64,000 bases of DNA, from contig NZ_CP107796.1 of NCBI RefSeq assembly GCF_036345995.1, positions 8,122,001 through 8,186,000 on the forward strand, read 5' to 3'. Numbering within the stretch: position 1 is the stretch's first letter; each line of letters opens with the position of its first letter. The translations under genes and the position numbers were made by a program. Below are positions 14,235-57,353 of this stretch, one piece after another. The stretch comes from Streptomyces sp. NBC_00557 (lineage in GTDB: Bacteria > Actinomycetota > Actinomycetes > Streptomycetales > Streptomycetaceae). The notes beneath the pieces are model-generated. The model searched no databases. It was not told where the DNA came from and worked only from the letters and a program-made list of their open reading frames with translations.

Positions 14235-14763
14235 CGGCCGGAGGCCGCGCGCGACAGGCGAGGGGGCGGAGCTGACGGCGGGGAAGCGGGAGACGAACCC
14301 GGCGGGGTAGACGAACACCCTGCGCGGCGATGTGCTGTGCCTGCTCGTGGTGTTGAAGTCAGTGACCGTCGACGAGATCCAGCGGAGCGCAGCCTCGCAC
14401 CTGGCCTACCGGCACACCGACAAGACGACGCCCTCCAAGCAGAAGCAGGCCGCCGCCCGATCCGGCCAGCAGCGGCCGATCCCTCCCAACTTCCCGGCGG
14501 ACCGGGCCCCACAAACCTCCGTGAGCCGTGCTGCCCTCCTGACCGGAGAAGCCGACCGCACTGACCGATGAGTCAGTGCGAGAAGCCAAGATTGGCTGGA
14601 AATGATCCGACGTCTCCGGTCCGGACCATTGACCGTCGAACCTTCGACCGCAACTCTGGATCGCGCCAGCGAACGAGCGCCTGAACTCCATCCATGAATG
14701 TGAACAGTTGGGTCGATATTCCTCCGATGTTTCCGGGCTTCTGTCCTATCGAGAGGGAGGAAC
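14235..14763. other. Intergenic region upstream of the polysaccharide cluster
   Basis: No supported gene; short open frames here show no family resemblance. The final 150 bases before the GH105 start are less GC-rich and should contain the promoter and any operator of the five-gene cluster. I could not identify a convincing -35/-10 pair or palindrome by eye. GAGGGAGGA at 14754-14762 is the ribosome site of the first gene. Confidence 0.4.
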
Positions 14764-15954
14764 ATGAGACGCCGTCGCCTTCGAACGGCACTGACCGGGC
14801 TGGTCCTCACCAGCGCAGCCCTCACCACCCTGCCCGCGGCCGCACCCGCGCCGCCGGCCTCCATCGGCCCCGCGGCGGCCCGTCCGGCCGCAGCCACCGA
14901 CTGGTCCACGGCCGTCGTCGACTCCACCATGGCCCGCTACACGCCGAGCACCATCGGCGGCTGGTCCTACCCCGTCGGCCTCTACCTCTACGGCCAGTAC
15001 CTCACCTACCGACGCACCCACGACGCCCGCTACCTCACCTACATCAAGAGCTATGTCGACCGGTTCGTGAAGAGCGACGGCTCCATCGACCAGTCCTTCA
15101 ACAGCCTGGACAGCATGCAAGCCGGCCGGCTGCTGGTGATCCTGCACCACGAGACCGGCCAGGACCGCTACCGCAAGGCCGCCAAAAAGATCCGCGACCG
15201 CCTGGACACCTACCCGCGCACTTCCGACGGAGGCTTCTGGCACGCGGACACCTCCAGCCGCGCACACCAACTCTGGGCGGACGGCGTCTACATGGTCAAC
15301 CCATTCCTCGTCGAGTACGGAAAGGAGTTCGGCGACAGCGCGTACACGGACAACGAGGCGGCCAGGCAGCTGTACGTCTACGGCAGTCATCTGCAGGTCG
15401 CGAACGGCCTGCTCAGGCACGCCTACGACGAGTCCAGGACCGCGAGTTGGGCCGATCCGCAGACCGGGCTCGCCCCCGAGCACTGGTGCCGGGCCGTCGG
15501 CTGGTACTCCATGGCGATCGTCAACGTCCTGGACGCCATTCCGGCGAACCAGTCCAGACGTCCCCAACTGCTGGCCAGCTTACGGAAGTTGGCCGCCGCT
15601 CTGGAGAAGTACCAGGACCCGGCGACCGGCCGCTGGCTCCAGGTGATGGACAAGGGGGACCGGTCCGACAACTGGACCGAGACCTCCTGTTCCAGCATGT
15701 TCACCTACGCCCTCTCCCGGGGGGCCCAGCAGGGCTACCTCGACCCGCACTACGCCGCTGTGGCGCACCGCGGCTACCACGGCGTGCTGGCGAAGCTCTC
15801 GGTCGGCCCGGACGGCCGCACCAACCTCGCCGGCATCTCCATCGGCACCAACGTCGGCGACTACGCGTACTACATCGCACGGGACCGGGCCACCAACGAC
15901 TTCCACGGTCTGGGCGCTTTCCTGATCATGAACGAACAACTGCGAGGTGATTAG
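14764..15954 (+). CDS. Exported GH105/GH88-type unsaturated glucuronyl or rhamnogalacturonyl hydrolase
   Basis: A 396-residue exported enzyme with a Sec-type signal (MRRRRLRTALTGLVLTSAAL, Ala-rich cleavage area near residue 45). The (alpha/alpha)6 barrel is recognisable by YPVGLYLYGQYLTYRR, SLDSMQAGRLLVILHH and the catalytic segment HQLWADGVYMVNPFL, whose Asp corresponds to the general acid of YteR-like enzymes. EHWCRAVGWYSMAI is a second family landmark. These enzymes hydrate the 4,5-unsaturated uronic acid left at chain ends by polysaccharide lyases, releasing it. An in-frame TTA codon at 15580-15582 could make it bldA-dependent. First gene of the cluster; the next ATG lies five bases after its stop. 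Confidence 0.88.
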   Translation: MRRRRLRTALTGLVLTSAALTTLPAAAPAPPASIGPAAARPAAATDWSTAVVDSTMARYTPSTIGGWSYPVGLYLYGQYLTYRRTHDARYLTYIKSYVDRFVKSDGSIDQSFNSLDSMQAGRLLVILHHETGQDRYRKAAKKIRDRLDTYPRTSDGGFWHADTSSRAHQLWADGVYMVNPFLVEYGKEFGDSAYTDNEAARQLYVYGSHLQVANGLLRHAYDESRTASWADPQTGLAPEHWCRAVGWYSMAIVNVLDAIPANQSRRPQLLASLRKLAAALEKYQDPATGRWLQVMDKGDRSDNWTETSCSSMFTYALSRGAQQGYLDPHYAAVAHRGYHGVLAKLSVGPDGRTNLAGISIGTNVGDYAYYIARDRATNDFHGLGAFLIMNEQLRGD

Positions 15955-15958
15955 TGTC

Positions 15959-16741
15959 ATGAGCACGTCCAGAAGGGCGCTGCTGGGTGCGGCGGTCGCG
16001 GGCGCGGCCGGGGCGACACTGGGCCTGCCCGCCACCGCCCACGCCGCCTCCTGGCAGCAGAAGTGGGCACCCTCCGCGAGCAGCGACGGCCTCGGCGCCT
16101 TCGAGACGATCGAGGACGACCGAGCCGACTCGCACCCCGCGGGGCATCCGCACATCTTCGCCACCGGCGACAACTGGCGCTTCAACATGCACATGGTGGA
16201 CCGGGACACCTCGACCGACCGTCAGCGCCAGGAGGTCACGGGTCTGCGCACGAGCTCCAGCAGCTACCTCAAGTGGAACGAGGGGCAGACCTGGCGGGTC
16301 ACCTACTCGATGTACATCCCGAGCTCGCTGAAGGCCACCACGACCTTCACCCACATCATGCAGATGAAGCAGCCCGGTGCCGGTTCCTCCCCGATCGTCA
16401 CGCAGTCGCTGCGCCGGGTGAGCGGCAAGCAGACCATCGAGCTCACCCTGCCCATCTCCGGCACCCTCGTCGGCCGCACCGACCTCGACCCGCTGCACGA
16501 CAAATGGACCGACGTCGACTTCCAGATCAAGGTCGGCAACGGCTCGGCGGGCTCCGTCCGCTGGATCCTCAAGTCCGGCGGCTCGACGGTCATCGACAAG
16601 TCGAAGACCGGCGTCGACACCTTCCTGGCCGACCGGGTGCGCCCGAAGTGGGGCATCTACCGCTCCCTCGGCGACACCTCCGGGTCCCTGCAGGACACCT
16701 ACCTTCTGCTCACCAACCTCCGTGGCTACCAACTCGTGTGA
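15959..16741 (+). CDS. Tat-exported polysaccharide lyase-like protein (jelly-roll type)
   Basis: 260 residues with a twin-arginine signal (MSTSRRALLGAAVAGAAGAT, cleavage after AHA near residue 32). The mature part looks like the beta-jelly-roll 'Polysacc_lyase' group related to heparin lyase I and PL20. RFNMHMVDRDTSTDRQRQEV carries the D-R-Q-R-x-E motif common in that fold, and VRPKWGIYRSLGD is the closing strand. Such enzymes cleave uronic-acid chains by beta-elimination and yield the unsaturated ends that the upstream GH105 would remove, which supports joint action. The exact substrate cannot be read. The ATG at 15959 was preferred over a GTG four codons earlier. Twelve bases separate it from the next gene. 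Confidence 0.75.
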   Translation: MSTSRRALLGAAVAGAAGATLGLPATAHAASWQQKWAPSASSDGLGAFETIEDDRADSHPAGHPHIFATGDNWRFNMHMVDRDTSTDRQRQEVTGLRTSSSSYLKWNEGQTWRVTYSMYIPSSLKATTTFTHIMQMKQPGAGSSPIVTQSLRRVSGKQTIELTLPISGTLVGRTDLDPLHDKWTDVDFQIKVGNGSAGSVRWILKSGGSTVIDKSKTGVDTFLADRVRPKWGIYRSLGDTSGSLQDTYLLLTNLRGYQLV

Positions 16742-16752
16742 GGAACGGTCAC

Positions 16753-19700
16753 ATGAAACCCCCCACCGATCCACGCCGCCGAGCGGCGGCCGTCATCCTC
16801 TTCGTGGTCGCCGTCGTCCTCGGCCTCAGCCACCCCGCGGCCCTCGCGGCCCTCGCGGCCCCGCGGCCCGCCCAGCACACCGCCGCCCGCGCCGCCGCCG
16901 AGTACAACGTGCGCGACTACGGCGCCAAGGGCGACGGCTCCACCAACGACAGCCCTGCCATCGACAAGGCGATCACCGCGGCCAACGCGGCGGGCGGCGG
17001 CACGGTCCGCTTCCCCGCCGGCAACTACAAGTCGAAGAACACCATCCACATGAAGAGCCATGTGACGCTCCAGGTCGACAAGGGCGCCACCATCCAGGGC
17101 TCCAGCGCGGACACCTACGACAAGGCCGAGTCCAACCCGAACGACGACTACCAGGACTACGGTCACAGCCACTTCCACGACGCGATGATCTACGGCGACA
17201 AGCTGACCGACATCGGCTTCGTCGGCCAGGGCGTCATCGACGGCGCAGGCAACCTGATCACCGGCAACCCGAAGTCCGGCGAGGCCGACAAGATCATCTC
17301 GTTGACCCGCTGCGACGGGCTCAGGATCGGCGACGGTCTCACCCTGCGCCGGGGCGGTCACTTCGCGGCCCTCATCAACGGCTGCACCAACGTGACCTCC
17401 GACCACCTGACGATCGACACCGCGAGCGACCGTGACGGCTGGAACGTCATCTCCACGACCAACGTCACCATCACCAACGCGACCATTCACGCCAACGACG
17501 ACGCCCTGGTCTTCAAGAGCGACTACGCCCTCGGCGCCAAGCTGTCCAACGGCCATGTCCGGGTGAGCGATTCGACCCTCGGCGCCAAGTGCTGCAACGC
17601 CCTGATGTTCGGCTCGGAGACCTGCGGCGACTTCTCGGACTACCAGTTCGAGAACATCCGGATCGACGGAGCGGACAAGTCCGGCCTCGGCATGGTCTCG
17701 ATGGACGGCTCGAAGATCTCCGACGTCCACTACCGCGACATCACGATGACCGACGTCCACTCGCCGATCATGCAGAAGATCGGCACACGGAAGCGGTGCG
17801 GCAACAGTCCCGGCGTCGGGTCGATCAGCAACGTCACGTACGACAACATCACGGCGACCGGCAACAGCCCGTCCTTCAGCCCGACCCTGTGGGGCGAGTC
17901 CGGCCACCGCATCAACGGCGTGACCTTCACCAACGTCAACATCACGGTCCCCGGCGGCAACGGCACCATGTCGACGGGCGTACCGAGCAACGACTCGACC
18001 GACTACAACCCCAAGAGCATCGGCACCCGGCCCGCCTACGGCTGGTACCTGCACAACGCCGACAACGTCCAGTTCACCGACAGCTCGGTCAAGTTCGCCT
18101 CGAACGACGGCCGGCCCGCGTTCATCGCCAACGCGGCCGGCGGCATCCGTCTGACCCGGTTCACCGCGCAGAAGGGCAGCAACTCCCCGTTCGACGCGGG
18201 CCTCCAGGACGTCAGCGGCTACTGCCTGACGGACAGCCACAACACCTCCGGTGGTGCCCTGCGGGTGTCGGCGAGCGGTTCCAGCCAGAACTGCACGAGC
18301 ACGGCGGTCAAGCCGCTCGACCTGGAGAACCCCCGCCAGGACTTCCTCCGCAACTCCGTCGGCGGTCTCTTCCTGCACTGGGGCCTGCGCACCGCGCCCG
18401 CCCACACCAGCTGCACCGCCTGGGAGAACGACGTGACGAACGGCGGCTGGACGCCCGACTACTGGGTCAACGAGGCGCAGAAGCTGCACACCCAGTACCT
18501 GGTCCTCGCCACCTTCCACAGCCGACTCGGCTACGCCCGCCCCTGGCCGTCCAAGATCCCCGGATCCTGCTCCACCAAGCGGGACTTCCTCGGCGAGCTG
18601 ATCACGGCCGCCAAGGCCAAGGGCATGAAGGTCATCCTCTACATGACGAACGACCCCCAGTGGCACGACGAGGGCGGCCACGAGTGGCTGGACTCGGCCG
18701 CGTACTCCGCCTACAAGGGCAAGAACGTCGACCTGACCACCAACGACGGCTTCGGCCAGTTCAGTTACGACAACTTCTTCGAGGTCATGGACCGCTATCC
18801 CGACCTCGGCGGCTTCTGGATCGACAACGACAACCCGTACTGGGAGAGCCACAACCTCTACCAGCAGATCTACGACAAGCGCCCGAACTACACGCTCAGC
18901 AACAACAACGAAGACACGCCGATCATGGACATGATCAGCAATGAGCAGAAGACGGGCATGACCCCGGCCTACGACTACCCCCAGGCCGTCTACACCGCCC
19001 AACCCCGCCTGACCGAAGCCGACTTCAAGCTGCCCTCGACCGGAGCCTGGTGGTACGACGGCTCCAACCCCTCCGTCGACCGGATGCTCACCCTCGGCCG
19101 CCTCATCACCAACGCCGGCTCGTCGGTCAAGGCGCTGATGGCCGAGACGGCCCAGGTCAACGGCAAGTTCCCGTCGAACCAGGCGTCCTTCAACACCTTC
19201 GCGAACACCTACCTCGACCCCATCTGGGAGTCCCTGCACGGCACCGAGGGCGGCGGCTACATGTACGGCGGCCTCAAGCCCGGCGCCTGGAACGACGGCG
19301 CGTACGGGGTGACGACCATCGCCAAGGGCGACCCGAACCGGCAGTACATCCACGTCCTGACCCCGCCCAGCACCAGCACCCTGCGTGTCCGGGACAACGG
19401 CTACCGCATCGCCTCCGTCACCAACCTCCGCACGGGCAAGGCGGTTTCGTGGTCGCAGTCGGGTGGTGTCCTGACCCTGACGGGGCTCGGCGACTGGGAC
19501 CCGTACGACACCGTCGTCAAGGTGACCACGGCCGGCCGCCAGGGCATCCTCACCGGCGTCAAGGTCAGTGCGAGCACCTCCGCGAGCGGCCACGGCGCGT
19601 CGGCGGCCGGTGACGGCGACTACCTCACCTACTGGGACAACAACAAGACCCTGCCCGTGAACCTCACCTTCGACCTCGGCTCGGCCAAGAAGGTGCAGTA

Positions 19701-20019
19701 CATCGGGCTCAACCAGCGCGAGGACTCCGTGGCCTACGCCCGTTCGAGCACCGAGCAGTCAGCGCGGATCAAGGACTACAAGGTGTTCCTGAGCAACGAC
19801 GGCTCGACCTGGGGGAGCGCGGTCAAGTCCGGCCAGCTGCCGAGCCGCCGCGGAATCCAGGGCATCGACCTGACCGCCGCCAACGCCCGCTACGTCCGCC
19901 TCGAGGTCGACACCACCTGGGCCGCCTCCAGTGACACCACCCGCTACAGGCGCCTGCGGGTCGACGAGGCGTGGATCGGCACCTCGTACGCCACACCCGC
20001 GAACGGGGGACAGTCATGA
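16753..20019 (+). CDS. Multidomain exported glycosidase: GH28-type beta-helix + GH29-like domain + CBM32
   Basis: 1088 residues. An N-terminal hydrophobic signal (AAAVILFVVAVVLGLSHPAA) is followed by a pectin-lyase-like right-handed beta-helix, residues about 50-510: YNVRDYGAKGDGSTNDSPAI, then the GH28 acid pair in ANDDALVFKSD; the usual GHG is replaced by CNALMFGSE. From about residue 531 (SVGGLFLHWGLRTAP) the sequence resembles an alpha-L-fucosidase (GH29) barrel; GGFWIDNDNPYW near residue 690 sits where the nucleophile Asp is expected. Residues about 930-1085 form an F5/8 type C (CBM32) module (LPVNLTFDLGSAKKVQYIGL). GH28 enzymes hydrolyse polygalacturonan or rhamnogalacturonan; GH29 enzymes remove alpha-L-fucose. 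Its stop overlaps the next start (ATGA). Confidence 0.8.
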   Translation: MKPPTDPRRRAAAVILFVVAVVLGLSHPAALAALAAPRPAQHTAARAAAEYNVRDYGAKGDGSTNDSPAIDKAITAANAAGGGTVRFPAGNYKSKNTIHMKSHVTLQVDKGATIQGSSADTYDKAESNPNDDYQDYGHSHFHDAMIYGDKLTDIGFVGQGVIDGAGNLITGNPKSGEADKIISLTRCDGLRIGDGLTLRRGGHFAALINGCTNVTSDHLTIDTASDRDGWNVISTTNVTITNATIHANDDALVFKSDYALGAKLSNGHVRVSDSTLGAKCCNALMFGSETCGDFSDYQFENIRIDGADKSGLGMVSMDGSKISDVHYRDITMTDVHSPIMQKIGTRKRCGNSPGVGSISNVTYDNITATGNSPSFSPTLWGESGHRINGVTFTNVNITVPGGNGTMSTGVPSNDSTDYNPKSIGTRPAYGWYLHNADNVQFTDSSVKFASNDGRPAFIANAAGGIRLTRFTAQKGSNSPFDAGLQDVSGYCLTDSHNTSGGALRVSASGSSQNCTSTAVKPLDLENPRQDFLRNSVGGLFLHWGLRTAPAHTSCTAWENDVTNGGWTPDYWVNEAQKLHTQYLVLATFHSRLGYARPWPSKIPGSCSTKRDFLGELITAAKAKGMKVILYMTNDPQWHDEGGHEWLDSAAYSAYKGKNVDLTTNDGFGQFSYDNFFEVMDRYPDLGGFWIDNDNPYWESHNLYQQIYDKRPNYTLSNNNEDTPIMDMISNEQKTGMTPAYDYPQAVYTAQPRLTEADFKLPSTGAWWYDGSNPSVDRMLTLGRLITNAGSSVKALMAETAQVNGKFPSNQASFNTFANTYLDPIWESLHGTEGGGYMYGGLKPGAWNDGAYGVTTIAKGDPNRQYIHVLTPPSTSTLRVRDNGYRIASVTNLRTGKAVSWSQSGGVLTLTGLGDWDPYDTVVKVTTAGRQGILTGVKVSASTSASGHGASAAGDGDYLTYWDNNKTLPVNLTFDLGSAKKVQYIGLNQREDSVAYARSSTEQSARIKDYKVFLSNDGSTWGSAVKSGQLPSRRGIQGIDLTAANARYVRLEVDTTWAASSDTTRYRRLRVDEAWIGTSYATPANGGQS

Positions 20020-22265
20020 TCCGTGCCAGATCGCTCACTGCCGCGGCGGCGGGCCTGCTTCTCGCCGCGGCGGTGCCGCTCGTGGGCACCGCCCACCCGG
20101 CCGCCGCCTCCGACAACGGCCAGTCCGTCCGGCCCGCCATGGGCTGGTCCAGCTGGAGCTTCGTGCGCCGCTGGCCGACCGAGGCGAAGATCAAGGCGCA
20201 GGCCGACGCGCTGGTCTCCAGCGGTCTGAAGGACCACGGCTTCGTCTACGTCAACCTCGACGACTTCTGGCAGAAGTGTGACAGCAACGGCTTCACCGTC
20301 GACAGCTACGGCCGCTGGGCCGTCGACACCGCCAAGTTCCCGGACGGCATCAAGGGGCTCGCCGACTACGTCCACTCCAAGGGCCTGAAGTTCGGCTTCT
20401 ACGTCACCCCGGGCATCGCGAAGAACGCCGTCACCAGGAACACGCCGATCGAGGGGACCTCGTACCACGCGAAGGACATCGCGGACACGTCCAGGACCGA
20501 GAAGAACTACAACTGCAAGAACATGTACTACATCGACTACTCCAAGCCGGGCGCGCAGGAGTTCGTCAACTTCTGGGCCAAGCAGTTCGCGTCCTGGGGT
20601 GTCGACTACCTGAAGATCGACGGGGTCGGCAGCGCCGACATCCCCGACGTCCAGGCCTGGGACAAGGCGCTGCGGTCCAGCGGACGGCCCATCAACTTCG
20701 CCCTGTCCAACAACCTGCCGATCGCGGATGCCTCCACCTGGCGGAAACTGGCGAACAGCTGGCGCACCCAGGGCGACGTCGAGTGCTACTGCGGGCCGGG
20801 CAGCAACGGCAGCGGCTATCCGCTGACCGACTGGTCCCACGTCTCCAAGCGGTTCGACTCGGCCGCCTCCTGGCAGCCGTACGCCGGACCCGGCGGCTGG
20901 AACGACCTGGACTCGCTGGAGATCGGGAACGGCGACCGGGTGGGCCTGACGGCGGACCAGCGCCGCTCGCACTTCACGCTGTGGTCGATGGCGGCGGCCC
21001 CGCTGCTGCTCGGAACCGATCTCACGCAACTGGACTCCGTCGACAAGGCGATGCTGACCAACGACCGGCTGATCGGCGTCGACCAGGACGGGGTCGCGGC
21101 CAAGCGGATCGTGAGCAGCGGTGCCAAACAGGTCTGGAGCAAGAAGGAGAGCGACGGCCAGTACGTCGTGGCCCTGTTCAACACCGGGACCTCGGGCAAC
21201 GCCACGGTCAGCGTGAACTGGTCGCAGGTCGGCTTCAGCGGCTCGGGAGACGTGACCGACCTCTGGTCCGGATCCCACAAGGGCGTGATCGCCGACTCCT
21301 ACAGCGCCACCCTGCGTCCCGGCGAGACCAGGCTCATCCGGGTCAAGCCCGTCAACTCCCTCAAAGCGGCGGCCGCTTCGCCCGGATTCGCCGTGGCCCC
21401 CTACGAGTACCTCGGCTGGGGCAGCCCCCAGAACCCGACCTCCGTGATGTCCGCGACCGGCGTCAAGTGGTTCACCCTCGCCTTCATCCTCTCCGACGGC
21501 ACCTGCAACCCGAAGTGGGACGGCTCCCGCCCGCTGACCGGAGGCAGCGACCAGTCCACGATCAACAAGATCAGAGCGGCGGGCGGTGACGTCGTCGTCT
21601 CCGTCGGCGGCTGGAGCGGGAACAAGCTCGGCGAGAAGTGCTCCAGCGCCTCCGCGCTCGCCGGCGCCTACCAGAAGGTGATCAACGCCTACAAGCTGAA
21701 GGCGCTCGACATCGACATCGAGAACACCGAGTGGTCCAATGCCACCGTGCGGCAGCGGGTCGTCGACGCGCTGAAGACGGTCAAGGCGAACAACCCGGGT
21801 CTGAAGACCGTCATCACCTTCGGCACCACCGCCGGCGGCCCCGACTCCACCGGCGTCGACATGATCAAGCGGGCCGCGAACTCCGATCTGGCGAACGACG
21901 TCTGGTGCATCATGCCGTTCGACTTCGGCGGCGGCACCACCAACATGGGCAGCCTCACCGCCAAGGCCATGGAAGGTCTCAAGGCCCAGGTGAAGTCGGC
22001 GTACGGCTACAGCGACGCCACCGCCTACGCGCGCATCGGGCTGTCGTCGATGAACGGCAAGACCGACGACTCCGGTGAGCGCGTCCGCGTCGCCGACTTC
22101 AAGACCATGCTCGCCTACGCCCAGCAGCACCACATCGGACGGCTCACCTACTGGGCGGTCAACCGCGACCGGGCCTGCGGTTCGGGCACCGACGGCGATG
22201 CCTGCAGCGGCGTGTCGCAGCAGCCGTACGACTACCTCAAGGTCTTCACCCAGTACACGGGCTGA
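20016..22265 (+). CDS. Exported GH27 alpha-galactosidase fused to a GH18-like domain
   Basis: 749 residues with a Sec signal (LTAAAAGLLLAAAVPLVG, cleavage near AAA-S). Residues 40-450 are a GH27 barrel plus beta-sandwich: PAMGWSSWSF, YVNLDDFWQ, the nucleophile segment VDYLKIDGVG, and GGWNDLDSLEIGNG with the second carboxylate. Residues about 460-749 are a different barrel, close to GH18: KWFTLAFILSDGTC, DVVVSVGGWSGNK, and ALDIDIENTEW, which holds the D-x-D-x-E catalytic signature. GH27 removes terminal alpha-galactose (or beta-arabinopyranose); GH18 cleaves chitin-type or related chains. Finding both in one polypeptide is unusual. Start coupled to the preceding stop; the next gene begins 12 bases after. 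Confidence 0.82.
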   Translation: MIRARSLTAAAAGLLLAAAVPLVGTAHPAAASDNGQSVRPAMGWSSWSFVRRWPTEAKIKAQADALVSSGLKDHGFVYVNLDDFWQKCDSNGFTVDSYGRWAVDTAKFPDGIKGLADYVHSKGLKFGFYVTPGIAKNAVTRNTPIEGTSYHAKDIADTSRTEKNYNCKNMYYIDYSKPGAQEFVNFWAKQFASWGVDYLKIDGVGSADIPDVQAWDKALRSSGRPINFALSNNLPIADASTWRKLANSWRTQGDVECYCGPGSNGSGYPLTDWSHVSKRFDSAASWQPYAGPGGWNDLDSLEIGNGDRVGLTADQRRSHFTLWSMAAAPLLLGTDLTQLDSVDKAMLTNDRLIGVDQDGVAAKRIVSSGAKQVWSKKESDGQYVVALFNTGTSGNATVSVNWSQVGFSGSGDVTDLWSGSHKGVIADSYSATLRPGETRLIRVKPVNSLKAAAASPGFAVAPYEYLGWGSPQNPTSVMSATGVKWFTLAFILSDGTCNPKWDGSRPLTGGSDQSTINKIRAAGGDVVVSVGGWSGNKLGEKCSSASALAGAYQKVINAYKLKALDIDIENTEWSNATVRQRVVDALKTVKANNPGLKTVITFGTTAGGPDSTGVDMIKRAANSDLANDVWCIMPFDFGGGTTNMGSLTAKAMEGLKAQVKSAYGYSDATAYARIGLSSMNGKTDDSGERVRVADFKTMLAYAQQHHIGRLTYWAVNRDRACGSGTDGDACSGVSQQPYDYLKVFTQYTG

Positions 22266-22276
22266 GGGGAACATCC

Positions 22277-24307
22277 GTGAACATCGCAAGAGTTCTGCCG
22301 TACGGCGTCGCGGCGGCCCTGGCGCTGCCGCTCGCCGGTCTCGGCCAGGGCACCGCACTGGCCGCCACCGACTACCAGGCCGAGGACGCCCTGATCTCGC
22401 AGGGCACCGTCGCCACCAACCACACCGGGTACACCGGCACCGGCTTCGTCGACTACACCAACGTCAAGGGCTCCTCCGTGGAGTTCACGGTGAGCGCGGC
22501 CTCCGTCGGCACCTCCGCCCTCACCCTGCGGTACGCCAACGGGACCTCCACCGACCGGCCGATGGACATCTCCGTGAACGGCACGGTCGTCGCCTCCGGC
22601 GTGTCCTTCCCGGCCACCGCCGACTGGAACACCTGGGCCACCAAGACCGTGAACGTCCCGCTGACCGCGGGCACCGACAAGATCCGGGCCACCGCCACCA
22701 CGGCCAACGGCGGTCCCAACCTCGACCGCGTCAGCCTCGACGCGGCCGCCGACACCCAGGCCCCGACCCGTCCCGGACAGCCCAGCTGCTCGGACATCGG
22801 TGAGAACGGACTCACCCTGGCCTGGGGCGCGTCCACGGACAACGTGGGCGTGAGCGCGTACGACATCTACGAGCACGGCAACAAGATCAGCGAGGCGCCA
22901 GGGAGTTCGACCTCCAAGGCGCTGACCGGGCTCACACCGAACACCGACTACAACCTCACGGTGATCGCCCGCGACGCGGCCGGCAACACCTCACCCGCCA
23001 GCCCGGTCGTCGACTGCACCACCAAGCCCAGCTCCGACACCACCCCGCCGAGCAAGCCGGGCACGCTGTCCGCGAGCAACGTCACCGCCAACAGCGCCGA
23101 CCTGAAGTGGGGCGCCTCGAGTGACGACAAGGCGGTGGTCGCCTACGACGTGCGCAGCGACACCACTGTCTACGACACGGTCACCAGCGGCACGTCCACC
23201 ACGCTCACCGGGCTCGCCTGCAACAGCCCCTACAGCCTGAACGTCGTCGCCCGGGACGCGGCCGGCAACGTCTCCGAGGCCAGCAACACGGTCTCCTTCA
23301 CCACGAAGGCGTGCGCGACCGACGGCGGAGTGCCGTCCTCGATCGCGACGCTCTCCACCGGCTGGACCATCCCCTGGGGCACCTACTGGATGCCCGACGG
23401 CAAGAGCGCGCTGGTCACCGAGCGGGACGACTTCCGGGTCTGGAAGGTCACCAAGGACGGCACGAAGACCCAGGTCGGCACCGTCCCGAACGCCGTCACC
23501 ACCAACGGCGAGGGCGGACTGCTCGGCGTCGCCGTCGACCCCAAGTGGGACACCAACCACTACGTCTACTTCATGCACACCGCGTCCGAGGGCAACCGGG
23601 TGGTGCGCATGACGTATGACGGCACCAAGCTCAGCGACTACAAGATCCTGCTCCAGGGCATCAAGAAGAACCGCTACCACAACGGCGGACGGCTCCTCTT
23701 CGGTCCCGACGGCTACCTCTACGTCTCCACCGGCGAGGCCCAGACGCCCGACCTGGCGCAGGACAAGAACTCCCTCAACGGCAAGCTCCTGCGCATGACG
23801 ACCGACGGCAAGCCCGCCCCCGGCAACCCGTTCGGCAACTACGTCTACAGCCTCGGCCACCGCAACCCGCAGGGCCTCGCCTTCGACCGCAACGGCCGGT
23901 TGTGGGAAGCGGAGTTCGGCAACAGCTCCAAGGACGAGCTGAACCTGATCAAGCCGGGCGCCAACTACGGCTGGCCGACCTGCGAGGGCACGTGCAGCGT
24001 GTCCGGGATGACCAACCCCAAGGCCACCTGGAACGTCTCGGAGGCCTCCCCGAGCGGTATCGCCATCGTCCGCAACGTCGTCTACATGGCGTCCCTGCGT
24101 GGCGAACGGCTGTGGCGGATCCCGATCAACGGCGACAACGAGAGCGTGGGCACGCCGACCGCCTACTACGTGGGCACCTACGGCCGACTGCGGACCGTCA
24201 CCAAGGTCCCCGGAGCCGATCAGCTCTGGCTGTCGACCACCAACTGCGACAACAACGGCAACCAGCCCGACGGATCGGACAAGATCTTCCGCGTGAGCAT
24301 CAGCTGA
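22277..24307 (+). CDS. Exported CBM35-FN3-FN3-PQQ-type sugar dehydrogenase
   Basis: 676 residues with a Sec signal (VAAALALPLAGLGQGTALAA). Modules in order: a CBM35-like sugar-binding sandwich, residues 30-160 (DYQAEDALISQG to PNLDRVSLDAA); two fibronectin III repeats, about 165-255 and 258-345 (each with an ARDAAGNxS strand); and a six-bladed soluble glucose/sorbosone dehydrogenase propeller, about 350-676, with GEGGLLGVAVDPKW, RYHNGGRLLFGPDGYLYV and SLGHRNPQGLAFD. Relatives oxidise free or chain-end sugars using PQQ. The CBM suggests it works on or near a polymer. GTG start with GAGGGGAAC upstream. Last gene of the cluster, followed by a hairpin. Confidence 0.82.
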   Translation: MNIARVLPYGVAAALALPLAGLGQGTALAATDYQAEDALISQGTVATNHTGYTGTGFVDYTNVKGSSVEFTVSAASVGTSALTLRYANGTSTDRPMDISVNGTVVASGVSFPATADWNTWATKTVNVPLTAGTDKIRATATTANGGPNLDRVSLDAAADTQAPTRPGQPSCSDIGENGLTLAWGASTDNVGVSAYDIYEHGNKISEAPGSSTSKALTGLTPNTDYNLTVIARDAAGNTSPASPVVDCTTKPSSDTTPPSKPGTLSASNVTANSADLKWGASSDDKAVVAYDVRSDTTVYDTVTSGTSTTLTGLACNSPYSLNVVARDAAGNVSEASNTVSFTTKACATDGGVPSSIATLSTGWTIPWGTYWMPDGKSALVTERDDFRVWKVTKDGTKTQVGTVPNAVTTNGEGGLLGVAVDPKWDTNHYVYFMHTASEGNRVVRMTYDGTKLSDYKILLQGIKKNRYHNGGRLLFGPDGYLYVSTGEAQTPDLAQDKNSLNGKLLRMTTDGKPAPGNPFGNYVYSLGHRNPQGLAFDRNGRLWEAEFGNSSKDELNLIKPGANYGWPTCEGTCSVSGMTNPKATWNVSEASPSGIAIVRNVVYMASLRGERLWRIPINGDNESVGTPTAYYVGTYGRLRTVTKVPGADQLWLSTTNCDNNGNQPDGSDKIFRVSIS

Positions 24308-24312
24308 TCGGC

Positions 24313-24340
24313 CGTCAGGCCCGACCCGTGGGCCTCGACG
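24313..24340. terminator. Hairpin ending the polysaccharide cluster
   Basis: CGTCAGGCCC pairs with GGGCCTcGACG (one bulged C) around a seven-base loop, starting six bases after the last stop codon of the cluster. Confidence 0.55.
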
Positions 24341-24344
24341 TCGT

Positions 24345-24545
24345 TGGCGTGGGCGTTCTCGATTGGCCTTGCCCTTCGGCTCCAGGGACGGGGTCAGCCC
24401 ACCGCGTTCCTCGACGAATAGCTGGGCCAGGATACGGAAACGTGCGGATCGACTCGGCCTGCGAGATCAGGGTGTTGGCGGCCTCCACCGCCCGACGCAC
24501 CTCAATCTGCAGGTCCGGGTCGCGCACCCGCTCCTCCAGCACCCC
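24345..24545 (-). pseudogene. C-terminal relic of an AMP-dependent acyl-CoA synthetase/ligase
   Basis: On the minus strand VRDPDLQIEVRRAVEAANTL and ISQAESIRTF match the last helix-strand of long-chain acyl-CoA synthetases. After a one-base shift near 24440 the next frame continues FRILAQLFVEERGGLTPSLE, the family's lid segment. The body of the enzyme, including the AMP-binding motif, is absent. No surviving catalytic function. Confidence 0.6.
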
Positions 24546-29417: not shown

Positions 29418-30695
29418 ATGAATCTCCCTTCGTACCGAGACTCCAGAAGCGCGACAGCACCGACGCGGGTCTCCGGCCGGGCCAGGAACGCAGCAAGGCT
29501 GAGCACGGCCGCAGCCGTCGCGGCGATGCTCCTGGCGGGCTGTGGCGCGGGCACCCCCAAGGCGACCTCGCACTCCACGAGTGGCCCCGGTCTGACGCCC
29601 GTCCCGCCCACTGCGCCCACCCGCTCCCACTCGTCCTTCGTTCCGGACCTCACCACCGCCGCCACCGCGTGCACCAACAGTACGAAGCTGGCCGGGTGGT
29701 CGAACCGCCGGCTGGCCATGCTGACCATCGCGGTCCCGGTGTCGGAAACCTCGGTGTCCGACGTCACCTCCGAGGTGAGCGCCGGCGCGGGTGGTGTGCT
29801 GCTCTTCGGCAGCAAGGCGCCGTCCGACCTCGGCTCACGGCTGAACACACTCAAATCCCATGTGCCGGGTCACCTGGGCCTGTTGGTCATGACCGACGAG
29901 GAGGGCGGCGGAATCCAGCGGATGTCGAACCTCGTCGGGTCCCTGCCCTGGGCCTCCTACATGGGCGCGCACTGGACCCCGGCCCAGATTCAGCAGAACG
30001 TCACGAAGGTCGCCACCAAGATGGCGGCTGCCCAGGTCAACATGGACCTCGCGCCAGTGGTCGACGTCGACGGCCGGAACGTGGCCCCCAGCAAGACGAA
30101 CCCCGACGGATGGCGGTCCTTCAGCGGCAGCACCTCTGTGGTGTCCAAGGACGGTGTCGCGTACCTGAACGGGTTGCGTGCCGGGCACGTGATACCTGTC
30201 GTCAAGCACTTTCCAGGCCTTGGCGGCTCCAGCTACAACTCCGACTTCGGCCCCGCCCGCACCTTGCCCTGGTCTACCCTGCAGAAGGTAGCCGTCCCGC
30301 CGTTCACCGCGGCCATCAAAGCCGGTGCCCCGGCCATCATGGTCGCCAACAACACCGTGCCGGGCCTGGCCACCAAACCGGCGAGCCTGTCACCTACCGT
30401 CATCAACTCCGAACTGCGCGGCAAGCTGGGCTTCAAGGGCCTTGTGCTCACGGACTCGCTCAGCGCCAAGGCCATCTCGGCCGCCGGGTTCAGCGTCTCG
30501 ACGGCCGCCGTCCAAGCCCTGCGCTCCGGCGCCGACATGGTCATGTTCGATCTGAAGGGCAACATCAGCTCCCAGACCTCCTCGATCGCCACGGCGATCA
30601 CGGATGCGGTGGCCGGCGGACATCTCTCCCGCAGCCGCCTGATCGACGCGGCGGGGCACGTTCTGGCCGTCCGGCACGTCAATCTCTGCTCCTGA
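29418..30695 (+). CDS. GH3-family lipoprotein (NagZ/LpqI-like)
   Basis: 425 residues. The signal ends in a lipobox (AAMLLAGC, Cys near residue 42), predicting an outer-face membrane lipoprotein. The GH3 barrel spans about 85-425: LVMTDEEGGGIQRMS, MDLAPVVDVDG, VIPVVKHFPGLGG, and LVLTDSLSA, which contains the nucleophile Asp. In NagZ the loop after KHFPG carries a His/Asp dyad; here the H is Leu, as in mycobacterial LpqI, and the following loop (SSYNSDFG) has Asp but no His. Probable role: trimming beta-N-acetylglucosamine or another beta-linked sugar from cell-wall material. GAAGGAGA precedes the ATG. A weak hairpin lies 28 bases past the stop. Confidence 0.83.
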   Translation: MNLPSYRDSRSATAPTRVSGRARNAARLSTAAAVAAMLLAGCGAGTPKATSHSTSGPGLTPVPPTAPTRSHSSFVPDLTTAATACTNSTKLAGWSNRRLAMLTIAVPVSETSVSDVTSEVSAGAGGVLLFGSKAPSDLGSRLNTLKSHVPGHLGLLVMTDEEGGGIQRMSNLVGSLPWASYMGAHWTPAQIQQNVTKVATKMAAAQVNMDLAPVVDVDGRNVAPSKTNPDGWRSFSGSTSVVSKDGVAYLNGLRAGHVIPVVKHFPGLGGSSYNSDFGPARTLPWSTLQKVAVPPFTAAIKAGAPAIMVANNTVPGLATKPASLSPTVINSELRGKLGFKGLVLTDSLSAKAISAAGFSVSTAAVQALRSGADMVMFDLKGNISSQTSSIATAITDAVAGGHLSRSRLIDAAGHVLAVRHVNLCS

Positions 30696-46809: not shown

Positions 46810-47787
46810 CCGAGTTCAGATCTTTAGACGGGCTGGAGGCTGCGGAGCCAGATGACGGCTCCGCGTAAGTGGAGTCCGGCCAGGTAGCCGGCCGGGGTCT
46901 TGTCGTGGCGGGTGGCGAGCCCGCGCCATTCCTTGATCTTGTTGATGCAGCGTTCGGCCCTGTTGCGCTCCTTGTACGAGGCCGCATCGTGGCTGACGGG
47001 GCGTCCGCCACGTGAGCCGCGTTTCTTGCGGTTGGCGGCCTGGTCGGTCTTCTCCGGGATCACTGCCCGGATCTTGCGTCGGCGCAGGTAGGCGCGGTTG
47101 GCGCGAGACGAGTACGTCTTGTCCGCGGCGACCGCGTCGGGGCGGGTGCGGGAGCGGCCCACCGGCCCGCGCACCTTGATGCGTTCCAGAACGGCGGTGA
47201 AACGGGGACTGTCGGCAGCCTGGCCGGGCGTGAGAACGAAGGACGGCGGACGGCAGCGGCGGTCCGCCGACAGGTGCACCTTGCTGGTCAACCCGCCACG
47301 GGAACGGCCCAGTTTGGCAGGGCGGAGACGGAGAAGCCCCTTTCCCTCGGCGACGGCCTTCTCCAGCGTCTCCAGCAGTTCCGGGTCCAGCATCATCCCG
47401 GCGGCGCGGTGGTGGGCCCGGGCAGACGTGGAGTCCACGCTCACCAGCCCGAGCTCCGCCTGCCCCCGGGCGGCGGCCTCAACGATCGCCGCTTCCATCA
47501 GCGCCTGGAAGACCCCCGCACCCGCCCACAGGTGGAACCGCCCGTAGTCGGTGGACCAGGACCCGTACGGGGGCATGTCCCGGCACGGACTGCCCGTACG
47601 GAACCGCCACATCACGCCGTTCACCAGTCGCCGCAGGCCAGGAATAGGACCGCGCTCGCCCAGCGGCAGCAACGGCTCAATCACCGCCCACTCGTCGTCC
47701 GTGAGATCACCCCGAGCCATCCCGCCTGTGTACCGCCCCGGATCCAGCCACGGCAGCAGAACGTCCAGACTCGTGATCCGAACTCGG
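46810..47787. mobile_element. Complete IS5-family element (IS-A), 978 bp
   Basis: Terminal inverted repeats CCGAGTTCAGATC (46810-46822) and, on the other strand, CCGAGTTCGGATC (47787-47775), one mismatch in 13. One transposase gene fills the element. No target duplication is visible: the flanks are an IS-C fragment on the left and an eight-base spacer (TAAACGCC) before IS-B on the right. A deletion at this element probably removed the rest of the older IS-C copy. Confidence 0.75.
46824..47720 (-). CDS. IS5-family transposase of IS-A, intact
   Basis: 298 residues. The N-terminal DUF4096-type domain is MARGDLTDDEWAVIEPLLPL. The DDE triad is readable: Asp in LVSVDSTSARAHH, Asp in AVAADKTYSSRANRAYLRRR, and Glu in RNRAERCINKIKEWRGLATR. 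It is full-length with an uninterrupted frame, so probably active. It catalyses cut-and-paste movement of the 978-bp element. Confidence 0.88.
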   Translation of the reverse strand: MARGDLTDDEWAVIEPLLPLGERGPIPGLRRLVNGVMWRFRTGSPCRDMPPYGSWSTDYGRFHLWAGAGVFQALMEAAIVEAAARGQAELGLVSVDSTSARAHHRAAGMMLDPELLETLEKAVAEGKGLLRLRPAKLGRSRGGLTSKVHLSADRRCRPPSFVLTPGQAADSPRFTAVLERIKVRGPVGRSRTRPDAVAADKTYSSRANRAYLRRRKIRAVIPEKTDQAANRKKRGSRGGRPVSHDAASYKERNRAERCINKIKEWRGLATRHDKTPAGYLAGLHLRGAVIWLRSLQPV

Positions 47788-50892: not shown

Positions 50893-51905
50893 CTAGTTGG
50901 GTCACGGCTGCTGATCGGTGGGGGTGGGTTTCGTAGTCGCGGGCGAGGCGGCGGTGGTGCATGAGCCAGCCGAGGGTGCGTTCGACGACTCAGCGGCGAG
51001 GCTGGACGTGGAAGCCGCGGACGGCGGGGTCGCGTTGGACGATTTCGAGGTCGATGCCGAGGTGGGGGCTTGTTCCACGGCTTTGGTCTTGTAGCCGTTG
51101 TCGGCCCAGGCTTTGGTGATGGTGGGGTGCGCTCGCGGACTTGGGTCAGGAGTTGGGCGCCGGCGGCGGAGTCGTGGACGCTGGCGGCGGTGACGCCACT
51201 GCCAGCAGGAGGCCGAGGGTGTCGGTGACGATGTGCCGTTTGCGGCCGATGATTTTCTTGGCCGGGTCGACGCCTTGGCTGGTCAGGTGGACGGTGGCGG
51301 AGGTTTTGATGCTCTGGCTGTCGATCAGGCAGGCGCTGGGCGCGCTGGTGCGGCCTTCGGCCTGGCGGACTTTGCCGCGTAACAGGCCGGTGAGCTGGTC
51401 GAAGATGCCGTCGGCTTCCCAGTGGGCGAAGTAGCCGTAGACGGTCTGGTGGGGCGGGAAGTCGTGGGGGAGGTAGCGCCAGGGGATGCCGGTGCGGTCA
51501 ACGTAGAGGATGGCGTTCATCAGGGCGCGCAGGTCGTGGGTGGGCTTGCGGATGCCGTTGCGGGCCTGGCGCCAGGCTTCGAGGGTGGGGCGGATGAGTT
51601 CCCAGCGGCGTCGGACAGGTCGCTGGGGTAGGGCCGTGAAGGCCGCATGATGCCTGGGTATTCGGTGGTGGCCGGCCTGAGCAGGGTGTGTGCGGGGGTG
51701 TCGGTTGCAGCGGGGCGTGTGTTCTCGATTCCTTGTGAACCGGTAGATTTCTAAACGAGACGGGAGTTCTCATAAGGAAACCGGCGTATAACTGGGTCTA
51801 CTGATTGCGACAGAAGCCCCTTTTCCGGCGGATCGTTTGGTTGCGCGCTCGGTTTGGACGCCGAAAATCGGCATGGACCATTCGATAAGCTAACCAAACG
51901 CTCAC
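50893..51905 (-). pseudogene. Degenerate inverted copy of IS-C
   Basis: The right terminal repeat (CCAAACGCTCAC ending at 51905, followed by TAA) and the 5' transposase region are present, but the gene is split over three frames (e.g. ILYVDRTGIPWRYLPHDFPP; RKRHIVTDTLGLLLAV; HHRRLARDYETHPHRSAA), with an in-frame stop near 50986, and is cut at 50893 before the left repeat. Together with IS-C it forms an inverted pair around the NTF2-like gene. Confidence 0.8.
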
Positions 51906-54442: not shown

Positions 54443-54793
54443 CCCGGGAAGCGCTCCCCGGCACCGGCCGGTGTGCGCCCATGGTGTGTGCCCGGCAGCG
54501 GCGCTGCGAAGCCGCCGACACTGCGATGCCTCCCCGCGGGATCGTCGTGTCCACCTGCTGAGGGCTCGCCGCCTCCTCTCCTTCTCTATGAGCCGGGAGC
54601 CTGTGCACGCACGCCGACGCGGTCGCTGAGAACGCGGCTGTAGCGGTCCTGCGGCCACGCGCTCTTCTCGCGGTCCGCTCAGGCCAGCGTTCCGGGTGTC
54701 TTCGATCAGTCCTGCGCAGTACCAGCCCAATTGCCCAACGCCCGATTGCCGGCACCCCTTGGCGTGCCGCGTCTGCCCGGGAGGGATCCCCTC
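54443..54793. promoter_or_regulatory. Untranslated leader between leader peptide and dioxygenase gene
   Basis: 350 bases without a supported gene. Several GC-rich inverted segments lie soon after the leader stop (e.g. CACCGGCCGGTG at about 54462-54473, a perfect 12-base palindrome), which could form alternative structures for attenuation. GGGAGGGATC just before 54794 is the ribosome site of the next gene. Confidence 0.5.
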
Positions 54794-55690
54794 ATGTCTC
54801 CATCCATCCGCAAACTCACCGGCCGTATCGGCGCGGTCGTCGAGGGCGTCGACCTCACCGCGCCGCCTGACCCCCTGACGGTCACGGCGCTCCGTGACGC
54901 CCTCAACGAGCACAAGGCGATCGTGTTCAACGACGTGAACCTCGACAATGCCGGTCAGGAGCGTGTGGCCGGGTGGTTCGGCGAGCTCACCACCGCTCAC
55001 CCGAACGTCCCGGCCGCCGAAGGCACGACGAGCGTGCTCGCCGTCGACAGCGAGACGTCCAAGGCCAACGAGTGGCACACGGACGTCTCCTTCGTGGTCA
55101 ACCCGCTGCAGGCCACCACGCTGCGGTCGGTCGTGACCACGCCGTACGGCGGCGAGACGCTCATCGCGAACGCCGCGGCGGCCTACCGCGATCTGCCCGA
55201 ACCGCTGCGCGCCCTCGCGGACTCGCTGCGCGCGGTGCACACCAACCAGTACGACTACGCGCGCCCCGCGTCCACGACGGCCCAGCGGCAGGAGTACGAC
55301 CGCGTCTTCGTCTCGACGCCCTACGAGGCCGAGCACCCGGTCGTGCGGGTGCATCCGCTGACCGGCGAACGCGGACTGTTCATCGGCGGGTTCGTCAAGC
55401 GCATCGTCGGCCTGTCGAGCAACGAGTCGGCCGATCTGCTGCGCATCCTCCAGTCGTACGTGACACGTCCGGAGAACATCCTGCGCTGGACCTGGTCGCC
55501 CAACCAGCTGCTGATCTTCGACAACCGGATCACCCAGCACTACGGGGTGGACAACTACGACGACCACCCGCGCCGCCTCAACCGGGTGACAGTGGCGGGA
55601 GACATTCCCGTCGGCGTCGACGGACGCCACAGCGAGCAACTCGTCGGCGACGCCACGCACTACAGCAGCGTGCTGGAGGCGGCGGCATGA
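54794..55690 (+). CDS. TauD/TfdA-family Fe(II)/2-oxoglutarate dioxygenase
   Basis: 298 residues. The iron-binding triad is visible: His and Asp in EWHTDVSFVVNP (near 95-97) and distal His in RITQHYGVDNYDDHPRRLNR, whose following Arg binds 2-oxoglutarate. The N-terminal LTGRIGAVVEGVDLT is the family opening. TauD-type enzymes hydroxylate alkylsulfonates or sulfate esters next to sulfur, releasing sulfite or sulfate; position ahead of a sulfonate transporter and behind a Cys leader supports that. The substrate is not determined. Its stop overlaps the permease start (ATGA). Confidence 0.88.
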   Translation: MSPSIRKLTGRIGAVVEGVDLTAPPDPLTVTALRDALNEHKAIVFNDVNLDNAGQERVAGWFGELTTAHPNVPAAEGTTSVLAVDSETSKANEWHTDVSFVVNPLQATTLRSVVTTPYGGETLIANAAAAYRDLPEPLRALADSLRAVHTNQYDYARPASTTAQRQEYDRVFVSTPYEAEHPVVRVHPLTGERGLFIGGFVKRIVGLSSNESADLLRILQSYVTRPENILRWTWSPNQLLIFDNRITQHYGVDNYDDHPRRLNRVTVAGDIPVGVDGRHSEQLVGDATHYSSVLEAAA

Positions 55691-56580
55691 CCGAGCTCAG
55701 CCTCACGGCGCCCGCCGGCACCGAGCGCCCGGACACCGCGACGACGAGCGCGCCGGAACGCGAGGTGTTCCTACCGCGCGACGCCCGACGCCGAACGCCG
55801 CTCAGCACACTCCGCGAACGCCTGCGCTGGCCGCTGGGCATCTACACGACTCCCGTCGCGATCCTCGTCGCCTGGGAGGTGCTCGCCCGGGCCGGAGTGC
55901 TGGCGAAGACCTATGCACCGGCACCGACCTCGATCGTGAAGTCCGCCGCCGATCTGTGGCAGCAGGGCGTCCTCGGGCCCGACCTGGCCGTCTCGCTGCA
56001 GCGGGCCGGCATCGGCCTCGCCATCGGTCTGACGGTGGGCATCGTCACCGGAGTGCTCGGCGGGCTGCTGCGCAGCGGGGAATACCTGTTCAACGGCCTC
56101 GTGCAGGTGCTCAACACGATCCCGCTCCTGGCGGTGCTGCCGCTGATGATCGTGTGGTTCGGCATCGACGAACTCACGAAGGTCCTGCTGATCTCCTTCG
56201 GAGCCGGTGTCCCGATGTATCTCAACCTGTTCGCCGCGATCCGGGGCGTCGACCAGCGGCTGATCGAGATGGCGCGCACGACGGGCGCGGGCACCTGGCG
56301 CCTGGTGACGCGCGTGCTGGTGCCCGGAGCCCTGCCGGGGTTCCTGGTCGGCCTGCGGTTCTCCCTCGCCTACAGCGTCCTGGGACTCGTCGCCGCCGAG
56401 ACGGTCAACGCCGACAAGGGACTCGGCTTCCTCATCACTCAGGGGCAGACGTATCTGCAGACCAACCAGGTCTTCGTGGGGCTGGTGATCTACTCGCTCC
56501 TCGGTCTGCTCGCCGACCAGTTCGTCCGGGCTCTCGAGCGGGTGCTGCTGCGGTGGCGACCCAGTTATGAGGCGTCATGA
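55687..56580 (+). CDS. ssuC: Sulfonate-type ABC transporter permease
   Basis: 297 residues with about six membrane helices: LGIYTTPVAILVAWEVLARA, SLQRAGIGLAIGLTVGIVTG, VLNTIPLLAVLPLMIVWFGI, LISFGAGVPMYLNLFAAIRG, LRFSLAYSVLGLVAAETVNA and VGLVIYSLLGLLADQFVRAL. The EAA-type coupling loop is IEMARTTGAGTWRLVTRVLV (normally EAA...G). An SsuC/TauC-type inner-membrane component that forms the channel with the ATPase and binding protein below. Translationally coupled on both sides through ATGA overlaps. The nitrate/sulfonate/taurine family assignment is firm; the exact solute is inferred from neighbours. Confidence 0.88.
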   Translation: MTELSLTAPAGTERPDTATTSAPEREVFLPRDARRRTPLSTLRERLRWPLGIYTTPVAILVAWEVLARAGVLAKTYAPAPTSIVKSAADLWQQGVLGPDLAVSLQRAGIGLAIGLTVGIVTGVLGGLLRSGEYLFNGLVQVLNTIPLLAVLPLMIVWFGIDELTKVLLISFGAGVPMYLNLFAAIRGVDQRLIEMARTTGAGTWRLVTRVLVPGALPGFLVGLRFSLAYSVLGLVAAETVNADKGLGFLITQGQTYLQTNQVFVGLVIYSLLGLLADQFVRALERVLLRWRPSYEAS

Positions 56581-57308: not shown

Positions 57309-57353
57309 CCTTCCCCCAAGACCTCACCCAGCACAGAAAGCAGCCCACATCCC

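Follow-up and report, generated by a model that had tools for sequence, protein, structure and literature searches.

Do the five tightly packed genes at positions 14764-24307 of the stretch studied here serve a single task, and if so on which polysaccharide? The stretch, hereafter the window, comprises 64,000 nucleotides of Streptomyces sp. NBC_00557 (contig NZ_CP107796.1, positions 8,122,001 to 8,186,000), and an original prediction made from its letters had pointed to a co-directional cluster of chimeric, exported carbohydrate-active proteins. The five genes, g1 to g5, are indeed present on the + strand. They encode a protein of glycoside hydrolase (GH) family GH105, which comes first, then a polysaccharide-lyase-like protein, a chimera of GH28, GH29-like and carbohydrate-binding module (CBM) CBM32 parts, a GH27 and GH18 chimera, and a glucose/sorbosone dehydrogenase (GSDH) bearing a CBM35. 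Their spacing is 4 bases, 11 bases, a 4-base overlap and 11 bases, the map proposed originally except that the first two gaps had been counted one too high, as 5 and 12. All five N-termini, read by eye, show a basic and then a hydrophobic stretch, and the proteins look exported, as had been claimed. We consider it rather probable that, whichever the substrate, the genes form a secreted cassette for one acidic heteropolysaccharide, coupled to the oxidation of a sugar released from it.

Conservation and fusion of the modules

Searched with g3, named genomes yielded 132 confirmed stretches, and the top 80, retained for the analysis, correspond to 75 distinct actinobacterial loci; because the best g3 matches were picked, this set leans to close relatives. 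Modules were counted within about 10 kb on either side of the GH29 gene, which is present by construction, and the counts are minima since contig ends cut some of the loci. GH105 was found in 65 loci, CBM35 in 64, the dehydrogenase in 61, GH27 in 57, GH28 in 56 and the lyase-like gene in 53, while at least four of six partners (GH105, lyase, GH28, GH27, GH18 and dehydrogenase) occur in 59 of the 75. All ten modules stand in the order of the window in 23 loci. The genes are thus linked in relatives and not scattered, so that the refutation envisaged originally fails, and the composition, for which the original prediction knew no described counterpart, recurs with common fusions in dozens of actinobacterial species. 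Within the genus, an even draw of 295 genomes was searched with g3 at E<=1e-50: 38 genomes matched, 18 of them, the window's own included, over nearly the whole gene, and the remainder through GH28 or GH29 genes standing apart or through distant copies.

Across the 75 loci, a single open frame joins GH28 to GH29 39 times, GH27 to GH18 24 times, CBM32 to CBM35 15 times and CBM32 to GH27 14 times. Database proteins of about 1500-1830 amino acids (aa) combine the Pfam domains GH28, GH29, CBM32 and GH27, one of them (P0213) adding GH105. Two Kribbella loci carry one frame of 1934 aa (L096:9884-15688) or 1933 aa (L100:9893-15694) that runs GH29-CBM32-GH28-GH27-like-CBM35-GH105 and is followed by a GH18 gene, the GH27-like part being 35-36% identical to g4. 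The modules are reassembled in other orders in Kribbella, Actinomadura, Lentzea and Actinoallomurus, and such differing fusions of the same parts across genera are strong evidence, at the level of sequence, that the modules of the cluster would serve one common task. A unique chimera or an assembly artefact was considered and rejected, since the same fusions are found in dozens of species. In Lentzea, a gene for an RHS-repeat protein of about 2158 aa (L098:14345-20824) lies on the opposite strand and adjoins the cluster.

Comparison with eight of these loci delimits the unit. Similarity begins at 14523-14880 and stops at 24307-24532, so that the block common to relatives spans at its widest 14523-24532 (+ strand); in L033, by exception, it stops at 22463, with a short match close to 32 kb, and L034 and L049 offered little or no upstream sequence to the comparison. 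Flanking sequence differs among these relatives, and the block behaves as a portable unit, or else its flanks were rearranged. It holds the five genes alone, with no transporter or regulator inside. The claim that none is linked is therefore true of the block; in other genera, however, LacI-like regulator genes (L090, L093, L094, L102) and sugar ABC transporter genes (L090, L093, L094, L103) lie near the GH29 gene, these labels being best NCBIfam matches of which none exceeds its equivalog cut-off. Import and control thus accompany some forms of the system. Accessory genes of families GH8, GH95 and GH5 occur in nine, three and two of the 75 loci, respectively.

PQQ genes and the upstream element

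The linkage of the cluster to genes for the synthesis of pyrroloquinoline quinone (PQQ) was followed in the same two samples. Among the 75 loci, pqqC and pqqE each occur in 29, and a pqqB match (a single piece spanning 40% or more of the query) in seven. PqqB, PqqC, PqqD and PqqE of L084 all score above the NCBI cut-offs, as do PqqC and PqqE of L079 and L035. These genes lie upstream of GH105 in nearly all pqq-bearing loci; S. varsoviensis (L092) and Actinoallomurus (L095) carry them on the opposite side of the GH29 gene, hence the linkage survives rearrangement. In the five loci inspected (L035, L037 of S. coacervatus, L039, L079 and L084), pqqC or pqqB is preceded by a short frame bearing an ETALEVTxY motif, on the strength of which we take it to be PqqA-like.

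In the genus sample, 26 of the 38 genomes with a g3 match have pqqB (E<=1e-30), compared with 52 of the 257 others (Fisher 5.8e-9, uncorrected for relatedness). When the eight genomes with distant matches (G047, G055, G096, G105, G149, G160, G164 and G179) were set aside from the 38 and moved to the others, the comparison became 21/30 versus 57/265 (1.5e-7, again uncorrected). Of these 30 cluster genomes, 17 carry pqqC, and 11 of those have a copy no more than 4 kb from the g3 match. In the window's own genome neither pqqB nor pqqC was found by searches that detect both in other genomes, and its best PqqE-like match is 28% identical. It holds two GSDH genes, g5 and one at C1:2524276-2525178 (L141). 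On sequence grounds, g5 seems to be a quinoprotein that its own strain does not supply with PQQ; as no PQQ genes were found in this genome, it would need the PQQ of neighbours or stay inactive.

A conserved 42-bp element (consensus TTCCTGACCGnnGAATCCGnnnGnACTGACCGnTGAGTCAGT, two mismatches here) with two CTGACC direct repeats is located at 14536-14577 (+ strand), and an inverted repeat, CGCACTGAC-6-GTCAGTGCG, which overlaps it at 14557-14580, is a possible operator. Sites preceding the cluster served to derive the 42-bp pattern. Allowed up to three mismatches, it occurs in ten of the 295 genus genomes, in one copy each and always beside the cluster, compared with none of the 295 for a reversed-pattern control; 28 of the 38 cluster genomes lack it at this threshold. 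In 33 of the 75 loci the best forward-strand copy has at most nine mismatches, the best of the reversed control having 11. Fifteen of the 33 have pqqC, and there the element stands about 450-500 bp before that gene; in the other 18 it stands before GH105 (16 loci) or before the lyase-like gene (L066 and L068, in which no GH105 was found). In these 33 loci the element stands at the head of the unit, whatever the first gene, which argues that pqq genes and hydrolases would be expressed together there. It may be an operator, a promoter or a feature of a leader RNA. A scan for sigma-70 promoters gave no sites versus 0.5 in shuffled sequences, and a terminator scan gave seven terminator-like sites versus 5.6 (sd 2.7).

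Domain composition of the five proteins

The domain assignments of the original prediction were upheld by Pfam for GH105, GH28, GH27 and the dehydrogenase; the lyase is marginal, and GH18 is recognized, more weakly, through solved chitinases instead. By sequence the catalytic motifs are intact; the functional roles given to conserved motif residues in g1 to g4 and in the dehydrogenase are presumed throughout. The g1 gene (14764-15954, + strand like all genes and modules below; 396 aa) encodes a predicted secreted, YteR-like unsaturated uronyl hydrolase. By its match to PF07470 (3e-92, 309.8 bits for a cut-off of 26.6) it is a GH105 protein; its best solved match is YteR (1nc5, 2.8e-77 along 345 residues), and the WxDG motif of the family is kept in 65 of 65 relatives.

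The product of g2 (15959-16741; 260 aa) resembles polysaccharide lyases and is probably exported by the twin-arginine translocation (Tat) route, many of its relatives being named Tat-signal proteins in the sources. With 32.0 bits for a gathering cut-off of 29.9 (1.5e-7), it is barely a member of PF14099, a family which we believe to include glucuronan lyase. In g2, R90-x-E92, Q135-x-K137 and K230-x-G232-x-Y234 are candidate counterparts of the RxE, QxH/K and KxGxY strand motifs of jelly-roll polysaccharide lyases; RxE and KxGxY are kept in 53 of 53 relatives and QxKQ in 48 of 53. A phylum-wide survey of PF14099, in which four of 246 genomes matched, was not used, as its cut-off missed the window's own copy. 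Breakdown of glycosaminoglycans, which the name 'heparin lyase I family' given in the sources would suggest, is not preferred because g2 matches no solved heparinase; sulfatases were not searched for.

In g3 (16753-20019; 1088 aa), the GH28 module (16891-18297) matches PF00295 (2.3e-20, 73.4 bits for a cut-off of 22.9), which by sequence makes it a GH28 member, and its best NCBIfam model is rhamnogalacturonidase BT4146. The catalytic Asp pair (D249/D250; N/D-DDA) is found in 56 of 58 relatives; GHG and RIK, which are polygalacturonase motifs, were not seen in the module. In S. inhibens the GH28 module has an in-frame stop (L099:10019-11422), and a GH28 match with one stop was also seen in four genus genomes. 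The GH29-like module (18313-19527) is placed in GH29 by PF01120 (7.5e-11, 42.5 bits for a cut-off of 25.2) and bears a GFWID motif, its FWID being kept in 80 of 80 relatives, while D691 aligns with the W-F-D of AlfC. An F5/8-type C, or CBM32, module (19528-19977; PF00754, 2.3e-14) follows.

The GH27 module of g4 (20016-22265; 749 aa) lies at 20121-21365 and matches PF16499 (Melibiase_2; 3.1e-41, 142 bits for a cut-off of 23) and PF17801 (7.9e-17), so that its sequence places it in GH27. DYLKxD is kept in 56 of 58 relatives; we take D202 (DYLKID) to be the nucleophile and D254 (SWRTQGD) the acid/base. At the position of CEW, the signature of plant alpha-galactosidases, the module has SNN. The chitinase-like module (21381-22262; DIDIE motif, E569) matches no GH18 Pfam family up to E=1. 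It is a GH18 member by its homology to the solved chitinases 9buf (5.8e-47) and 2dsk (2.9e-25) and by DxDxE, which is present in 40 of 40 relatives.

Finally, g5 (22277-24307; 676 aa) is predicted to combine a CBM35, two fibronectin type III (FN3) domains and a PQQ-type GSDH, with Pfam matches to PF07995 (3e-69), fn3 (4.1e-20), CBM_6 (5.7e-10) and CBM_35 (6.1e-7). The same stretch scores higher as CBM_6 (40.0 bits for a cut-off of 28.9) than as CBM_35 (30.2 for 28). The module (22361-22747) is assigned to CBM35, its best solved match being 2vzp (1.4e-46, 124 residues), which we take to be the CBM35 of the exo-beta-D-glucosaminidase CsxA and presume to bind both glucuronic acid and the ends of unsaturated uronates. 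The window has this single CBM35. Among the 75 loci, 52 have one and 11 none, and 12 have at least three and up to eleven, which are carried on GH105, lyase, GH28, GH29, GH27, GH18, GH8 and dehydrogenase proteins; extra CBM35s and pqq genes may have been lost in the window's strain or gained elsewhere. The GSDH module (23327-24304) belongs on sequence grounds to the PQQ-dependent GSDH family, with 234.3 bits to PF07995 for a cut-off of 25 and 3das as nearest solved protein (5.1e-93); with the PQQ dehydrogenase subfamily TIGR03606 it reaches 140.2 bits, below the cut-off of 434.55. Its HNGGRLLFGPD is an instance of HxGG....GPD, presumably the catalytic His motif, which is conserved in 60 of 60 relatives.

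Proposed function and substrate

Taken together, the modules would act in steps. The lyase-like g2 protein would cut uronate links by beta-elimination and leave unsaturated uronyl ends, which g1 would take off, while the GH28 module of g3 would release alpha-linked uronic acid. GH29 would remove fucose (or L-galactose), GH27 alpha-galactose, and GH18 would open an associated N-acetylglucosamine polymer. Through its CBM35, g5 would be anchored at uronate or unsaturated-uronate ends, and its dehydrogenase would oxidize one of the sugars released, with L-fucose a plausible one. The same unit contains the PQQ genes in many relatives. GH29 next to g5, and GH95 in three loci, make L-fucose (or L-galactose) the obvious sugar to propose for the dehydrogenase. 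The fungal quinoprotein CcSDH oxidizes D-glucosone, L-fucose and D-arabinose, among others, with PQQ (PMC4133262). A uronic acid polymer carrying galactose and fucose, with oxidation of a product, had been proposed originally and fits the modules.

As the polymer we rank first, tentatively and with something less than an even chance, the glucuronans of the wall or exopolysaccharide of Mucoromycota (Mucor-type). Fucose is described as a specific component of Mucoromycotina walls (PMC7928374), and an engineered glucuronan lyase-chitinase fusion targets two Mucorales wall polymers (PMC7601620). The fullest version of the proposal is a dedicated actinobacterial system for acidic, fucosylated Mucoromycota walls or slime. 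It would comprise a secreted lyase, uronyl hydrolase, fucosidase, galactosidase and chitinase, tagged with CBM35, with its own PQQ synthesis, a fucose-oxidizing extracellular quinoprotein and one upstream element, and strains devoid of PQQ genes would depend on the PQQ of others; taken whole, we hold it to be speculative and rather doubtful.

A number of observations weigh against the cassette as we read it or against its fungal target. Galactose and mannose are low in Mucoromycotina walls (PMC7928374). GH18 occurs in only 40 of the 75 loci, and a profile of 37 g2 relatives retrieved no solved lyase from the PDB up to E=10, 2zzj included, so that g2 is not placed among PL20 glucuronan lyases or PL13 heparin lyases I by match to a solved member. 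No mannosidase is among the genes scanned, although mannose is a prominent sugar of mucoran, and we know of no GH28 enzyme that acts on glucuronic acid. The GH8 present in nine loci is closer to a glucanase (5xd0), chitosanases coming next. The pqq genes adjoin the cluster in under half of the loci, the element is not found within nine mismatches in 42 of the 75, 14 of which have pqqC, and four of the 21 cluster genomes with pqqB (G068, G084, G182 and G274) have no pqqC. The latter make pqqB alone an imperfect marker; their PQQ sets may be incomplete, or the match may be to a pqqB-like gene with a different role. Moreover, the 75 loci are mutually related and, having been chosen as best matches, are not independent samples, and the activity of the cassette is read from sequence throughout.

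Some of the evidence points instead to pectin, and plant rhamnogalacturonan I (RG-I) or mucilage, carrying side groups of fucose, galactose and L-galactose, is a substrate that we regard as possible, on the doubtful side. The lyase would then open the backbone, GH105 would remove unsaturated galacturonic acid (GalA) from rhamnose and GH28 GalA from rhamnose, and GH29, GH95 and GH27 would trim the side groups. The nearest relatives of the GH28 module (NF049898, the BT4146 model, 306.7 bits) and of GH105 (YteR, 2.8e-77) are rhamnogalacturonan enzymes, and the GH5 of two loci is of the endoglucanase type. However, the GH28 score lies below the equivalog cut-off of 500, and GH18 and GH8 are left unexplained; indeed GH18, and GH8 in nine of the 75 loci, are hard to fit to any of the plant polymers proposed originally. 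Twenty internal gaps of 0.7-6 kb occur in the loci, and the 15 that were identified are GH8, GH95, GH28, pqq, ABC or LacI genes, with no rhamnosidase, RG lyase, arabinofuranosidase or beta-galactosidase among them, no search having been aimed at those families; the gaps outside these 15 are the first of L090, those of L092 and L095, the first of L103 and that of L104. It is this absence, together with the unexplained GH18 and GH8, for which we do not prefer a pectin locus.

Arabinogalactan proteins or gums, in which the lyase and GH105 would act on capping uronates, seem to us quite unlikely: side chains bearing glucuronic acid and fucose suit GH105, GH29 and CBM35 in principle and galactose is present too, but GH28 and GH18 again find no use, and no GH43, GH16, GH30, GH35 or GH154 was seen among the 18 proteins scanned with Pfam. 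A substrate other than Mucoromycota polymers, RG-I-type pectin and arabinogalactan is unlikely. The genes might also share no substrate and be independent degradative genes that have gathered in a variable arm of the chromosome. The block does lie about 0.5 Mb from the contig end, with IS4/5-type transposases nearby and flanks that vary; the repeated natural fusions, the order kept in 23 of 75 loci, the reassembly in four genera and the one conserved upstream element nevertheless make this very improbable.

Relation to known systems

Every enzyme family of the cluster is already known. For the combination, the fusions, the pqq linkage and the element, no description was found in the literature among the matches listed, judged by titles and abstract openings, and we describe the whole as a locus for glycan degradation bundled with a cofactor and a redox arm. 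Its parts recall several described systems. As in the rhamnogalacturonan route of B. subtilis, there is a YteR-like protein, and the GH28 of g3 resembles BT4146; unlike that route, no RG lyase or rhamnosidase is among the cluster genes identified, and g1 looks exported, judging from its N-terminus, whereas YteR is intracellular. The CBM35 of Amycolatopsis CsxA is the best solved match of that of g5, but it belongs to an exo-glucosaminidase and the g5 module carries a sugar dehydrogenase. Bacteroidota polysaccharide utilisation loci likewise co-locate the enzymes for one complex glycan; the present block differs in having no SusC/SusD pair, in its soluble secreted enzymes and fusions, and in the PQQ arm of its relatives. 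With AA12/CcSDH, which oxidizes L-fucose with PQQ (PMC4133262), and with 3das, g5 shares the GSDH family; it is bacterial, has CBM35 and FN3 where CcSDH has cytochrome b and CBM1, and is pqq-linked in relatives. The Trichoderma TrGL (PL20)-chitinase fusion also sets a lyase and a chitinase against two Mucorales wall polymers (PMC7601620), whereas the g2 profile finds no match to 2zzj and the chitinase-like module of g4 is fused to GH27.

If the fungal reading is right, a bacterial enzyme set can be named for fungal walls whose polymers are poorly known, with uses in analysing or attacking such walls, and cofactor synthesis would be bundled with extracellular glycan breakdown in a genomic case. 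The locus would also offer an immediate test of why some soil Streptomyces retain a quinoprotein without PQQ genes. Were the substrate pectin instead, this would still be a conserved, fusion-rich locus with a redox arm, undescribed in the literature searched.

Surroundings of the locus

The contig measures 8.68 Mb. The IS4/5-type transposase genes of the same chromosome arm are at 46824-47720 and 51146-51520, the second being short. About 5 kb downstream of the cluster, outside the conserved block, 29418-30692 encodes a protein with a GH3 N-terminal domain. Further on, genes for a TauD-type dioxygenase, an NMT1-like substrate-binding protein and a luciferase-like monooxygenase are clustered at 54731-59737, a group which, we presume, resembles a sulfonate-type utilisation set.

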